DNA of 32,167 nucleotides from Natronohydrobacter sp. (GTDB lineage Bacteria; Pseudomonadota; Alphaproteobacteria; Rhodobacterales; Rhodobacteraceae). Within the stretch, counting starts at the first letter, position 1, and each line of letters begins with the position of its first letter. A model generated the notes under the pieces. That model worked only from the letters and a program-made list of their open reading frames with translations. It did not search any database and was not told the origin of the DNA. Location: positions 1 to 32,167 of the forward strand of contig JAFIEM010000035.1 in assembly GCA_020832555.1 (NCBI GenBank), given 5' to 3'. A program made the position numbers and the translations under genes. This document shows positions 20,622-23,652 of this stretch, piece after piece.

Positions 20622-21431
20622 ATGAGCGACAGTTCCCCACTTGACGCCTATCGTCTTGACACCGAGCCGAAATGGCACGCGACGGGTGACGAAATCTCTC
20701 TGTTTTCAGCCGCTTATGCGGCACGGCTGCCAGTCATGCTGAAAGGCCCGACGGGTTGCGGCAAGACCCGCTTTGTAGAGCATATGGCCTGGCACCTGCA
20801 ACGCCCGCTGGTCACAGTGTCCTGCCACGAGGATATGACCGCCTCGGATCTGGTCGGGCGCTATCTGCTGGGGCCAGAGGGCACGCATTGGCAGGACGGG
20901 CCGCTGACACTCGCGGTGCGTCACGGCGCGATCTGCTATCTGGATGAGATCGTGGAGGCGCGTCAGGACACGACCGTGATCATTCACGCGCTGACCGATG
21001 ACCGGCGCATCCTGCCACTGGAAAAGAAGGGCGAGCTGGTGCGTGCGCATCCTGATTTCCAGCTCGTGATCTCCTACAATCCCGGCTACCAGTCGGTGCT
21101 GAAGGATCTGAAGGAATCCACCAAGCAGCGGTTTTGTGCGCTGGATTTCGACTATCCTGCCGCGCAGTTCGAAGCGCAGATCGTGGCCTCCGAGGCAGCA
21201 ATCCCGCAGACGGGTGCCGAAACGCTTGTCCGCATCGCCCACAAAAGCCGCAATCTGCGCGGGCAGGGGCTGACAGAGGGGGCCTCGACCCGGATGCTGA
21301 TCCATGCCGGGCGGCTGATGGCGGGCGGGCTGAGTGTAACCGAGGCTTGCAAGCTGGCCATGATCACGCCAATGACGGATGATCCTGAAATCCGCGCGGC
21401 CCTGTCAGCGGCTGTCGATGCCTGTGTCTGA
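20622..21431 (+). CDS. CbbQ/NirQ/NorQ-family AAA+ ATPase (MoxR-type)
   Basis: This is a MoxR-group AAA+ ATPase, 269 residues. Walker A is GPTGCGKT at 42-49, followed by the family segment [20 protein letters not shown]. Walker B is ICYLDE at 104-109, and sensor-1 and arginine-finger regions lie near SYNPGYQS and KESTKQRF. Relatives work with a VWA partner to activate Rubisco (CbbQ/CbbO) or nitric oxide reductase (NorQ/NorD). No such enzyme is encoded here; the flanking targets are AmiE and FmdA. The ATG at 20622 has GGAGG upstream, and a longer frame that begins inside amiE is rejected. The Pseudomonas amidase operon also has an ATPase gene (amiB), of a different Clp-like type, which makes an amidase-linked role plausible but unproven. 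Confidence 0.88.
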
Positions 21432-23652
21432 AACCCGCACCAGACCTGCGCTTGGGGCTGGCCCTGATGATCCGCCACAGGCGCGGATCGCAGCGGCCCA
21501 TGCGCGGCTTGCCGGTGCGGGCTACGGGGTCAGCGTGCCGCGCGCATTTCGGCAGGTGGCACCGAAGATCGCCGCACAGTTGGGGCAAGAGGCGGCGCTG
21601 GCCCTTGCCGATGCGGCTTCGCGCATCGCCATCCGCACGCGCCCACGCATCGCGGCGCAGTTTCTCGACCTCTCGGTGCCGATGGCGCGCAGGTTGGGGG
21701 CACCAGAGCCGTTCCGTCGCTGGATTGCCCTCCTTCAAGGTTTGCTGAAACCTGCGCCCGACGCCATCGAACCGCTGCTGGAACGCATGGAAACGCTGCA
21801 CCAGCGGCTTGGTCTCGCGCCGCTTGAGGCCTGGGTCCAGACAGGTCTGCGGCTGGCAGGCACGGACCTCGCCCTGCGCCGCGCCTATTTCACGCTCGAA
21901 CTGCCCGAAGCCGTGCGCTTGCTGGAACGTCATGCGGGCGAGGACACATTTCACAGCCTCGAAGGGGAATTGCGCGCGACGCATCGCGCGCTCTGGGGAC
22001 AATCCCCGCCGATCCGCGAGGCGCTGCCACAGGCGAAGGGACGCGCGGCCTTGCGGGCGTCGTTTGGGGCGGGGGTGATCCAGTTGCCCGCAAGCTATAG
22101 CGGCTATCGCGGGCGCGAACGGCTGATCTACAAGGCAGCACTTGCCCATATCGGCGCGCATATGGCCCATGGTGGGGCGCGCTTTCAGGTGGGCCAACTC
22201 AAGCCCTTGCAGATCGCGGTTGTCTCGCTGATCGAGGATGCACGCGTCGAAACGCTGGCCCTGCGCCAGATGCCGGGGCTCGCACGGCTCTGGCTGCCGT
22301 TCCATGATGTCGCGCCCGAAGGCATGGCCACAACGCCGTCGCTGTTCGGGCGTCTGGCGCGCGCGCTGATTGATCCCGATTTCCCGATCCGTCACGGCTG
22401 GGTGCGCAAAGGGGTGGAAATGTTCCGCGCAGGCGACGGCCAGATCGGCAATCCGGCGCTCTCGCGTCATATCGGCAATATCCTGGGCAATGATCTGGGC
22501 CAGACGCGCGTGCAGTTCAATGCGCGCGACTATGTGGTGCAGCCTGTCTATCGTGATGATAACCTCGGATTGTGGGATCTGCCCCCAGATCCGCATGAGG
22601 CGCAACAACATCATCACATCGATATCGAAACACATGACCTACGCCGCAGCGAGGAGACGGACAGCCCGCAGGACCGCAAGACCGAGCGCGCGGATCAAAG
22701 CACTGACTTGCCACCCGAGAAGATTGTCGCAGCCCCTGCGGCAAGCGGCGTCGGGCGTATTGTCGGGCATCTGCCGGAATATGACCATCTGGCCGGGATT
22801 GAGCGCGCCGACTGGGTCACGGTCAAGGAATACGATCCCGCGCCGGGCGATCCTTTGTTCTGGCGCAAGCTGGAAGACCGCCACGGCCCGCTTCTCGCCC
22901 GTATCCGCTCGCTGGTGCGTGCCGCTGCCATGGGGCGGCAGAAGCGTCTGAAACGGCAGGCCGAAGGCGAGCGGCTGGATCTGGACGCAGCCATCGAGGC
23001 CGCCATCGACCTGCGCGCCCGCAGGACGCCCGATCACCGGGTCTATGAGGGGGTCTCGACGCCCGATCGCTCGATTGCCGTTCATTTGCTGATTGATACC
23101 TCGCATTCCACGGGCGATCCCGTCAGCCCCACCGGACCAAGCATCATTGTGCTCTTGCGCGAGGCAACGGGGGTTCTCGCCCATGCCATGACCCAGTTGG
23201 GCGACCCGCTGGCGATCACAGCCTTTGCCTCGGACGGGCGCGACGATCTGCGGCTGGTGCGTGTCAAACGGTTTTCGGATGATCTGGGACCGCTCACCGG
23301 CATGGCCCTGTCGGGCTTGCGGCCCGGCTATTCCACCCGGATCGGGGCCGCAATCCGCGATGCCGGTGCAACGCTTGCGCCTGTGCCCGCGCATCGGCGT
23401 CTGGTGCTGATCCTGACAGATGGCGAGCCATCTGACATCGACATCCGCGATCCTGACTACCTTGTTGCCGATGCCAGACGCGCGGTGCAGGGCCTGAACA
23501 GTGCCGGGATCGACGTGTTCTGCATTGCGCTGGGGCAGGGGGCGGGACAGCGCCATGCCGAGATATTCTCGAAACGCGGCTTCGTGCAGATCGACCGTCT
23601 GGAGGCGCTGCCGGAAAAGCTGCCCGCGCTCTATCTGCGGATGACGCGATGA
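21418..23652 (+). CDS. CbbO/NorD-family VWA-domain protein
   Basis: This is the partner of the AAA+ ATPase, 744 residues. A long, mostly helical N-terminal region (about 1-400) contains the [25 protein letters not shown] segment of NorD/CbbO proteins. A charged linker (about 395-440) is rich in His, Asp and Glu, and a C-terminal von Willebrand A domain spans about 550-744. The MIDAS metal site is intact, with DTSHS at 560-564 (DxSxS) and Asp668 in TDGEPSD. The chosen ATG at 21418 overlaps the ATPase gene by 14 bases, so the two are translationally coupled. In known systems the VWA protein is the adaptor that contacts the target enzyme. The target here is unknown, with AmiE, FmdA or the urease as candidates. 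Confidence 0.87.

Follow-up and report, generated by a model that had tools for sequence, protein, structure and literature searches.

A CbbQO-type ATPase–VWA pair linked to aliphatic amidase genes whose products carry a Rubisco-type C-terminal His-Arg tail

The window analyzed here is the whole 32,167-nucleotide stretch of contig JAFIEM010000035.1 from Natronohydrobacter sp. (GCA_020832555.1). It contains two genes, referred to as Q and O, in the following setting.

7469–8629, + strand: UrtA-like binding protein in the AmiC position (TIGR03407, below its cut-off)
8626–9231, + strand: AmiR-type ANTAR antiterminator (Pfam AmiR_N and ANTAR)
9543–14354, + strand: urea/short-amide ABC transporter genes for UrtA-like, UrtC, UrtD, and UrtE proteins, UrtB between them being expected only
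14354–14815: ureE, upstream of ureAB
14611–15498: ureF, upstream of ureAB (frame start unsure)
15513–19395, + strand: urease genes ureAB (fused), ureC, ureG, and ureD
19501–20544, + strand: amiE, aliphatic amidase, the proposed client (NF009802; 2plq)
20536–20541, + strand: codons CAT CGC for the C-terminal His-Arg of AmiE (HK/R tag)
20622–21431, + strand: Q, CbbQ/NorQ-type MoxR AAA+ ATPase, 269 amino acid residues (Pfam AAA_5, CbbQ_C)
21418–23652, + strand: O, CbbO/NorD-type protein with a C-terminal VWA domain and a complete MIDAS, 744 residues (NorD match, MIDAS)
23727–24686, + strand: short FmdA/AmdA-family gene (FmdA_AmdA, PF03069), of a family that is not a regular neighbor of QO-linked amiE

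The coordinates and the profile matches of the neighbors bore out the preliminary description, which had placed the pair between amiE and an FmdA-type gene, and re-reading of the frames reproduced the 14-base overlap, the intact Walker motifs, and the MIDAS that it had reported. Q starts with ATG at 20622, ends with a stop codon at 21431, and overlaps O by exactly 14 bases. It contains the Walker A motif GPTGCGKT at residue 42 (positions 20745–20768), a 10-residue H2-insert motif at residue 79, and the Walker B motif ICYLDE at residue 104, and it matched AAA_5 (1.8e-34) and CbbQ_C (3.5e-29). Its nearest solved relatives were the CbbQ structures 5c3c (395 bits) and 6l1q (375 bits), followed by NorQ (306 and 304 bits). 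In the source genome (86.23% complete), a profile search found only one CbbQ_C gene. O (ATG at 21418, stop at 23652) has MIDAS residues DTSHS at 560, T640, and D668, which were invariant across 12 aligned O proteins. The Pfam VWA profile alone gave a sub-threshold score (21 bits against 23.8), and the solved relatives of O were two NorD proteins, the best being 9qhd (3.9e-32 over residues 452–742). The pair thus has the composition of a CbbQO-type activase, a CbbQ-type AAA+ protein with Walker A, Walker B, and CbbQ_C and a downstream VWA protein with a complete DxSxS-T-D MIDAS. A search of viral contigs with Q yielded one distant match (54%, L013). AmiE scored 706.6 bits against NF009802 (cut-off 427) and 657 bits against the aliphatic amidase 2plq, and it contains E59, K134, and C166, which we take to be the nitrilase triad; on the profile score and these residues it was classified as an aliphatic amidase.

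Among 18 O relatives whose surroundings were opened (4 MAG contigs and 14 plasmid records), 16 were near amiE, and the other two were beside form I Rubisco and beside carboxysome genes, respectively. Among the matches listed, 26 of 60 AmiE plasmid records had a listed Q within 10 kb, as counted by eye. In a family draw of 394 genomes, AmiE was found at 1e-150 in 10, with QO directly after it in 4 and AmiB in 6. A larger set of 84 AmiE comprised 47 labeled QO-linked, that is, with Q or O within the examined stretch around amiE, 12 linked to AmiB, and 25 with neither ATPase nearby. Of the 47 loci, 27 have Q after amiE at no more than 350 bases and on the same strand, and 3 at a greater distance but still on that strand. 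In 11, Q is on the opposite strand, mostly beyond urease genes, and in 6 it lies past the examined stretch; for four of these six (L181, L182, L192, and L207) it was found in further sequence beyond the initial stretch. For L121 (A. caldus), in which no Q could be recognized, the QO-linked label relies on the VWA gene, and for L172, at a contig end, on O only. Recombinant AmiE shows activity in the absence of an ATPase; this and the 25 AmiE without a nearby ATPase suggest that QO is not needed for basal AmiE activity.

The slot after amiE is shared by an alternative ATPase. In Paraburkholderia the order is amiE, Q, O, binding protein, ANTAR; elsewhere it is amiE, AmiB, binding protein, ANTAR. 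AmiB lies directly after amiE as QO does, but it consists of AAA_2 and ClpB_D2-small domains, unlike the MoxR/CbbQ_C protein Q, and AmiB-linked AmiE end otherwise than H-x, 7 of 12 with EKEA[GDS]. AmiB had no match in the window, and no ATPase of the AAA_2/ClpB_D2-small type follows amiE there; the best match in the source genome reached 159 bits on another contig, against 456–860 bits in six AmiB genomes. Linkage, the tree described below, and above all the AmiE tails favor the earlier view of AmiB as an independent solution in the same operon slot. To our knowledge, the function of the ATPase genes of amidase operons has been an open question since amiB was described.

In a tree of 49 O proteins, amiE-linked O formed one clade (98/96), separate from both Rubisco-linked O (100/99) and NorD-like O (100/100), the "nor" label being assigned by score band with a Pfam-confirmed NorB candidate in L113 only. 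In the wider O trees, a full O being unavailable for L121, L172, and L207, an AU test that included two long-branch O rejected a single clade of the 44 amiE-linked O (p 0.004); without these two, amiE-linked O formed one clade with an SH-aLRT of 94, which was not starred. In the Q tree, from which L017 (Q in two frames) was omitted, amiE-linked Q appeared as one clade in only 8% of bootstrap trees. Grouping of the pair within the Rubisco clade or the NOR clade, the outcome that would have refuted the earlier proposal, was looked for and not found in the case of O; for Q, the tree by itself gives no decision on this point.

The AmiE of the window ends in His-Arg, the C-terminal HK/R of a CbbQO client, and no other product among the 29 window frames checked has a penultimate His. 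This His was present in all 47 QO-linked AmiE (43 HR, 2 HK, and 2 HA), which are not 47 independent cases given the strong tree signal, and in none of the 12 AmiB-linked or 25 unlinked AmiE. The count omits L030–L032, AmiE-like paralogues of about 450 bits without a Q or AmiB match, and L212, whose AmiE is cut by a contig end. It also follows the labeling of L056 (G397) as AmiB-linked, because AmiB adjoins amiE there and a divergent QO pair lies 5 kb away among tubulin-like genes; its AmiE ends in EKEAD. Under the criterion applied to the new loci, which accepts any Q or O in the examined stretch, L056 would count as QO-linked, the 48th such locus, and would break the tag pattern. In those new loci, for which the prediction was set beforehand, 24 of 26 QO-linked AmiE ended in HR and two in HA, and none of 21 others carried the tag. 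Only the last two alignment columns separated QO-linked from unlinked AmiE almost completely. Among Rubisco large subunits beside CbbQO in the survey, 15 of 15 form I proteins ended in HR and 2 of 2 form II proteins in HK, and four tails from NorB/NorC positions had no H-x. According to the available text of PMC4660213, CbbQO recognizes Rubisco via a C-terminal HK/R motif, and its action is abolished by deleting one or two residues of this tail or by adding one Ala. The penultimate His matters most and can be replaced only partly, by aromatics, while the last residue is replaceable (PMC4660213, same text); the two HA tails of AmiE fit this. Since AmiE carries the two-residue tail that Rubisco needs for repair, the motor very probably services AmiE.

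Enzyme-repair motors of the CbbQO class are known for Rubisco, Q forming the hexameric motor and O a single adaptor. On the combined sequence evidence, we consider it likely that the pair is a CbbQO-type remodeling machine with AmiE as its client, an "amidase activase" that resets inhibited enzyme. The recruitment of the pair to remodel an amidase, as previously proposed, accords with linkage, the tree, and above all the HK/R tail, and the predicted role of AmiE as the client is well supported. Q would act as the hexameric motor and O as the single adaptor, by analogy with CbbQO. Docking would involve two points on AmiE, the C-terminal His-Arg, the same motif on which CbbQO depends in Rubisco, and an acidic residue at the surface, to which the MIDAS of O may bind. 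The alignment contained no acidic residue specific to QO-linked as against unlinked AmiE; positions E331 and E335 carried an acidic residue in the QO-linked set and in almost every unlinked AmiE, and less often in AmiB-linked AmiE. We infer that QO binds AmiE and that coupled ATPase motion would pull its tail, loosen the closed active site, release a dead-end state, and so reactivate the enzyme. Pseudomonas amidase forms a stable urea (carbamoyl) adduct, and a stalled active-site adduct of this kind is the most likely inhibited state, which would agree with the production of this amidase together with urea-uptake and urease proteins. The literature directly on urea inhibition of amidase that we found amounted to one title in a reference list.

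Other clients fit the data less well. The preliminary statement that neither Rubisco nor NOR is encoded here holds for the window and extends to the source genome (86.23% complete). Two RuBisCO_large matches were found in that genome, both with tails other than H-x. The best relative of the first was 3nwr, "a rubisco-like protein", and that of the second was 3qfw, whose deposition names a Rubisco large subunit although it is presumably a Rubisco-like protein, with DK-MTP-1-P enolase next; judging from these relatives, we read both as Rubisco-like and not as active-type Rubisco. Neither RbcS nor NorB was found in the genome at this completeness, and we interpreted its three COX1 matches as oxidases of the aa3, the fused caa3/ba3, and the cbb3 type. 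An assembly that is 86% complete and a Q closest to CbbQ by sequence leave some room for a Rubisco or NOR missing from the assembly as the client, but the genome search disfavors it, relatives on complete plasmids (plasmids only) show the amiE linkage too, and O lies outside both clades, making this extremely unlikely. Service to urease or FmdA, for instance in metal loading, with amiE adjacent merely through a shared amide/urea gene context, is very unlikely. Urease was near 22 of the 47 QO-linked loci, several with QO convergent to ureD, and the related NorQD serves metal insertion (available text of PMC13036017). However, the examined stretches contained no UreC in 25 of the 47 and no FmdA match at 1e-10 in 43, with matches in 4, diverged FmdA being undercounted with the short FmdA of the window as the query; 131 of 132 urease-protein tails had no penultimate His, and two unlinked loci had urease without QO. 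Among the candidate clients named earlier, linkage, tree, and tail thus uphold AmiE, and linkage and protein tails led us to reject urease and FmdA.

Two further alternatives accept the link to AmiE. The His-Arg tail might have another role, such as stability or an oligomer contact, and track QO by shared ancestry only. The tree signal is strong, and of the independent pairs on starred branches of the AmiE tree there were only five, all going the same way (sign test on supported branches, p 0.06). Yet QO and tag each changed nine times on this tree with agreement in all 84 rows, including a tag difference within one genus (g223; L203 against five others). The residues preceding the tag vary while the tag is constant, and the same motif occurs on the unrelated Rubisco clients. 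We regard this alternative as very unlikely. It is possible, though less probable than resetting, that QO is an assembly chaperone that uses the tag and acts once, on folding or subunit joining, and not on inhibited enzyme. Linkage and tag serve this explanation equally, its sister machine NorQD acts in metal insertion and maturation (available text of PMC13036017), and "assembly/activation" has been proposed for one such operon (PMC13209695, in part). Against it, unlinked AmiE 79–82% identical to that of the window exist without either ATPase nearby, and CbbQO, with the same tag, acts on finished, inhibited Rubisco (PMC4660213, as above).

The pair that we propose to be an amidase activase shares with the CbbQO Rubisco activases of Acidithiobacillus ferrooxidans (Q1O1 and Q2O2) the two-gene architecture, the CbbQ_C ATPase, the MIDAS in a C-terminal VWA domain, and a client with a C-terminal HK/R. 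The differences are that the client is encoded by amiE, that the search for an active-type Rubisco found none, and that O falls outside the Rubisco-linked branch. NorQ/NorD likewise combines a MoxR AAA+ protein with a VWA partner, has the GRxLL motif in common, and includes the nearest solved structure of O; here, however, the genome (86.23% complete) contained no NorB, and O and Q fall outside the NorQD-like branch. Our literature searches for CbbQ/CbbO or NorQ/NorD with amidase found the link only in PMC13209695 (2026), the available text of which describes a plasmid ami operon of Pseudomonas veronii Yu15 with amiE, CbbQ/NorQ-like and NorD-like genes, amiC, and amiR, and suggests assembly or activation of the amidase. 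That text covers a single case and contains no tag, tree, or AmiB comparison; the tag, the survey, and the tree are new here. A search on amidase operons with AmiB and AmiE found nothing on topic.

In a wider reading, which we hold with as much doubt as confidence, QO would be a general, portable enzyme-reset system that an enzyme can enter by acquiring a C-terminal His-Arg/Lys. Its three clients would be form I Rubisco, form II Rubisco, and AmiE, the last locked by its own side reactions, e.g., with urea, and AmiB would be an unrelated Clp-type machine that meets the same need by reading an EKEA-like tail. If so, a second client with the tag of Rubisco would make AAA+ "activases" a wider principle, and an enzyme ending in His-Arg beside a QO pair would provide a simple test for finding clients. 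AmiE would be a small, easily assayed client for studies of the CbbQO mechanism, and the finding would suggest what the ATPase genes in amidase operons do.

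The pair consists of the following two genes.

20622–21431, Q, a CbbQ/NorQ-type AAA+ ATPase (Pfam AAA_5 and CbbQ_C)
21418–23652, O, a CbbO/NorD-type VWA protein whose C-terminal part matches NorD

Their positions, the 14-base overlap, and the presence of Walker A, Walker B, and all MIDAS residues agreed with the preliminary description; a GRxLL-type H2-insert motif was also present. Among solved relatives of Q, CbbQ ranked ahead of NorQ. On the 5′ side of the pair (QO) are an UrtA-like gene in the AmiC position, amiR, an amide/urea ABC transporter, urease genes, and amiE, encoding aliphatic amidase; on the 3′ side are an FmdA-type gene, an SDR gene, and an amidase-signature gene, and the reported location between amiE (upstream) and the FmdA-type gene (downstream) was reproduced. 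The sensor and the transporter component, two UrtA-like proteins encoded at 7469–8629 (AmiC position, before amiR) and 9543–10793 (transporter cluster), look like paralogues.

The source assembly (3.9 Mb, 238 contigs, 3.45% contaminated), of which the window is one entire contig, contains a single CbbQ_C gene and two RuBisCO_large matches (contigs C65 and C190; loci L002 and L003). By far the closest solved structure to the first match was 3nwr ("a rubisco-like protein"). The second was closest to 3qfw, titled Rubisco large subunit, which we take to be a Rubisco-like protein despite that title, followed by enolases of the methionine salvage kind. Both matches were read as putative Rubisco-like proteins. 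Two different proteins of this putative kind coexist in the genome, and neither tail ends in H-x. Three COX1 matches were likewise read as probable aa3-type, fused caa3/ba3-type, and cbb3-type oxidases, none of them NorB. As no Rubisco small subunit was found either, no known client of a QO pair was detected in the source genome (86.23% complete), extending the absence of Rubisco and nitric oxide reductase described for the window.

The genes accompanying QO elsewhere were then considered. A genome-contig search with O yielded four relatives, all from metagenome-assembled genomes (three titled Rhodobacteraceae, one Natronohydrobacter), and in each of them amiE lies immediately 5′ of Q. A plasmid search yielded 258 records, 24 of them with at least 80% of O covered, and 14 neighborhoods were opened. 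In the first ten, amiE was present in nine (called from record annotation or, for unannotated records, by tblastn) and form I Rubisco in one (Cereibacter); the later four contained amiE (Paraburkholderia, Burkholderia arboris, and Acidithiobacillus caldus) or carboxysome genes (Nitrobacter). Neither a urease nor an FmdA match was found in the QO–amiE stretches of Rhizobium etli, Shinella WSD5-1, and Labrenzia, and in Ancylobacter the urease genes are convergent with QO, with amiE about 5 kb beyond. In Ciceribacter (L017, 8944–9731), Q matches fall in two frames, and in A. caldus (L121, 4710–5390), Q is not recognizable; both keep amiE and VWA genes alongside.

A Q match with an E value of at most 1e-60 was present in 108 of 394 genomes drawn from the window's family, and the matches formed two bands, 445–525 bits (21 genomes) versus 381 bits or less. 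In the upper band, Q was located directly after amiE in 4 genomes, beside RbcL and RbcS in 14, and beside a lone form II large subunit in 2 (one assigned against solved structures, the other from Pfam together with similarity); the last, in genome G397, is flanked by tubulin-like genes, with an amiE–amiB locus about 5 kb away. Lower-band Q were labelled NorQD-like by score band; the one locus checked (L113) has a COX1-family NorB candidate, and three plasmid neighborhoods of this band contain cytochrome oxidase/NOR-type genes. The survey suggested by the preliminary description placed QO directly after amiE in 4 of 394 genomes, and amiE near O in 16 of the 18 opened relatives (4 contigs and 14 plasmids). 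AmiE itself was found at 1e-150 in 10 genomes of the family, followed directly by QO in four and by AmiB, the Clp-type ATPase of other amidase operons, in six. In a class draw of 385 genomes, AmiE exceeded 680 bits in five, two with QO and three with neither QO nor AmiB, and three weaker AmiE-like matches had no Q or AmiB match alongside. Among 60 listed of 64 AmiE plasmid records, Q was within 10 kb in at least 26 and AmiB adjacent in at least 6, both lower bounds counted by eye among the matches listed; no listed record had both.

The AmiE of the window ends in His-Arg. In the first AmiE set, a His-Arg or His-Lys end was found in 21/21 proteins labelled QO-linked, 0/10 AmiB-linked, and 0/6 unlinked ones. 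The prediction that H[RK] goes with Q was set down before 48 new loci were fetched: 42 from an order draw (AmiE in 44 of 377 genomes, two already known), 2 from a draw of a smaller order (AmiE in 3 of 43), and 4 plasmid records, one truncated AmiE being left out. AmiE at the 26 new loci with Q or O in the stretch ended in HR (24) or HA (2), and H[RK] was found in 0/19 unlinked and 0/2 AmiB-linked ones. In total, the 47 QO-linked AmiE comprised 43 HR, 2 HK, and 2 HA ends, and a penultimate His occurred in 0/12 AmiB-linked and 0/25 unlinked AmiE. In the 47 QO-linked loci, Q lies directly after amiE (27), on the opposite strand (11), further off on the same strand (3), or past the stretch (6). 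Positions before the tag vary and the tag is constant; every other AmiE column distinguishes the groups far less well. AmiE alone has a penultimate His among the 29 window reading frames examined, and the residue was absent from 131 of 132 urease-protein tails at QO-linked loci. The AmiE rows are related to one another, and the pattern was tested on a tree inferred by a quick method from AmiE sequences with the tail excluded.

INDEPENDENCE

On this tree (84 rows), QO linkage and the tag each required nine changes and agreed in 84/84 rows. Independent pairs on starred branches all had the same direction (5/5; sign test, p 0.06), and nine pairs were available on all branches. A close comparison comes from a single genus (g223): G1027 has amiE–QO and an HR end; G283, G983, G1005, G1124, and G1151 have no QO in the stretch and other ends.

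In the Q and O trees, which take CbbO from Alphaproteobacteria, the placement raised in the preliminary description was obtained in part. In the O tree (49 rows), amiE-linked O formed one clade (98/96) apart from the Rubisco-linked (100/99) and NorD-like (100/100) clades. In the Q tree (56 rows), Rubisco-linked (99/99) and NorQ-like (98/95) Q were recovered and amiE-linked Q was not recovered as one clade. In a wider O tree (70 rows) including the long-branch L056 and L129, the 44 amiE-linked O were split, and the AU test rejected a single clade (p 0.004); without these two (68 rows), they formed one clade (SH-aLRT 94). L129 is a Miltoncostaea plasmid locus (4992–8702) in which an unknown gene separates a CbbQ-like gene (62% identity to the window Q) from a VWA gene; neither AmiE nor Rubisco is annotated nearby, and 0/7 frames checked have an H-x end.

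AmiB, described earlier as an unrelated ATPase in a similar operon position, is indeed a ClpB-D2-like protein (AAA_2 and ClpB_D2-small), not a CbbQ_C protein, in the same slot after amiE: the order is amiE–AmiB–binding protein–ANTAR in the window's family versus amiE–Q–O–binding protein–ANTAR in Paraburkholderia. In 14 AmiE genomes, AmiB matches of 456–860 bits lay beside amiE in six, and the other eight had general Clp-type matches only (162 bits or less). None of the 47 QO-linked loci had an AmiB match in the stretch. The sole locus with both is that of G397 (L056), in which AmiB adjoins amiE, a divergent QO lies 5 kb off, and AmiE ends in EKEAD. AmiB-linked AmiE group together on the AmiE tree (support 51), so the alternation may reflect one or a few swaps. 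EKEA[GDS] ends occur in 7/12 AmiB-linked AmiE (L051–L056 and L210), and AmiB may read a tail tag of its own. A more distant AmiB-like gene adjoins amiE in Rhodococcus and Mycolicibacterium. Three tubulin-like genes, one ending in KQHA with a penultimate His, are interleaved with QO in G397 (L056, 955–8971), and two Rhodococcus plasmids (L133, 12736–16371; L134, 13127–16707) each carry two beside amiE and the AmiB-like gene; the tubulin-like proteins are a possible further partner of QO or AmiE.

In our survey, Rubisco large subunits beside CbbQO ended in HR (form I, 15/15) or HK (form II, 2/2), and for Rubisco large subunits accompanied by cbbQ and cbbO, Tsai et al. (2015, PMC4660213) describe a C-terminal HK/R motif. 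In that work, both activation and stimulation of the ATPase were lost when one or two residues were removed or one Ala was added; the final residue tolerated substitution, aromatics could stand in only partly for the penultimate His, and the ATPase was stimulated by an 11-residue peptide of the tail. The two HA ends are compatible with the tag rule, a reading made after they were seen, and the AmiE pattern, including them, follows the Rubisco rules though AmiE is unrelated to Rubisco. We found no earlier report of the AmiE tag in the literature on CbbQ/CbbO or NorQ/NorD with amidase, AmiB/AmiE operons, or urea inhibition. The available part of PMC5437159 mentions CbbQO-like pairs away from Rubisco, and denitrification, and does not contain the word amidase.

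AmiE is very probably the client of QO. What the pair does to it is less settled: an assembly chaperone ranks next after reset of the inhibited enzyme, and PMC13209695, on the ami operon of a single plasmid that includes Q-like and NorD-like genes, suggests either assembly or activation of the amidase. We give an even chance to QO resetting inhibited AmiE. In such a reset, a Q hexamer with one O would dock on AmiE through the AmiE tail and a MIDAS contact. A candidate dead-end state is AmiE stalled by urea through a carbamoyl adduct, and a "cysteine carbamoyl-switch" reportedly inhibits a formamidase of the same superfamily. ATP-driven twisting, the model for NorQD (PMC13036017), would then open the AmiE active site and free the dead-end state.
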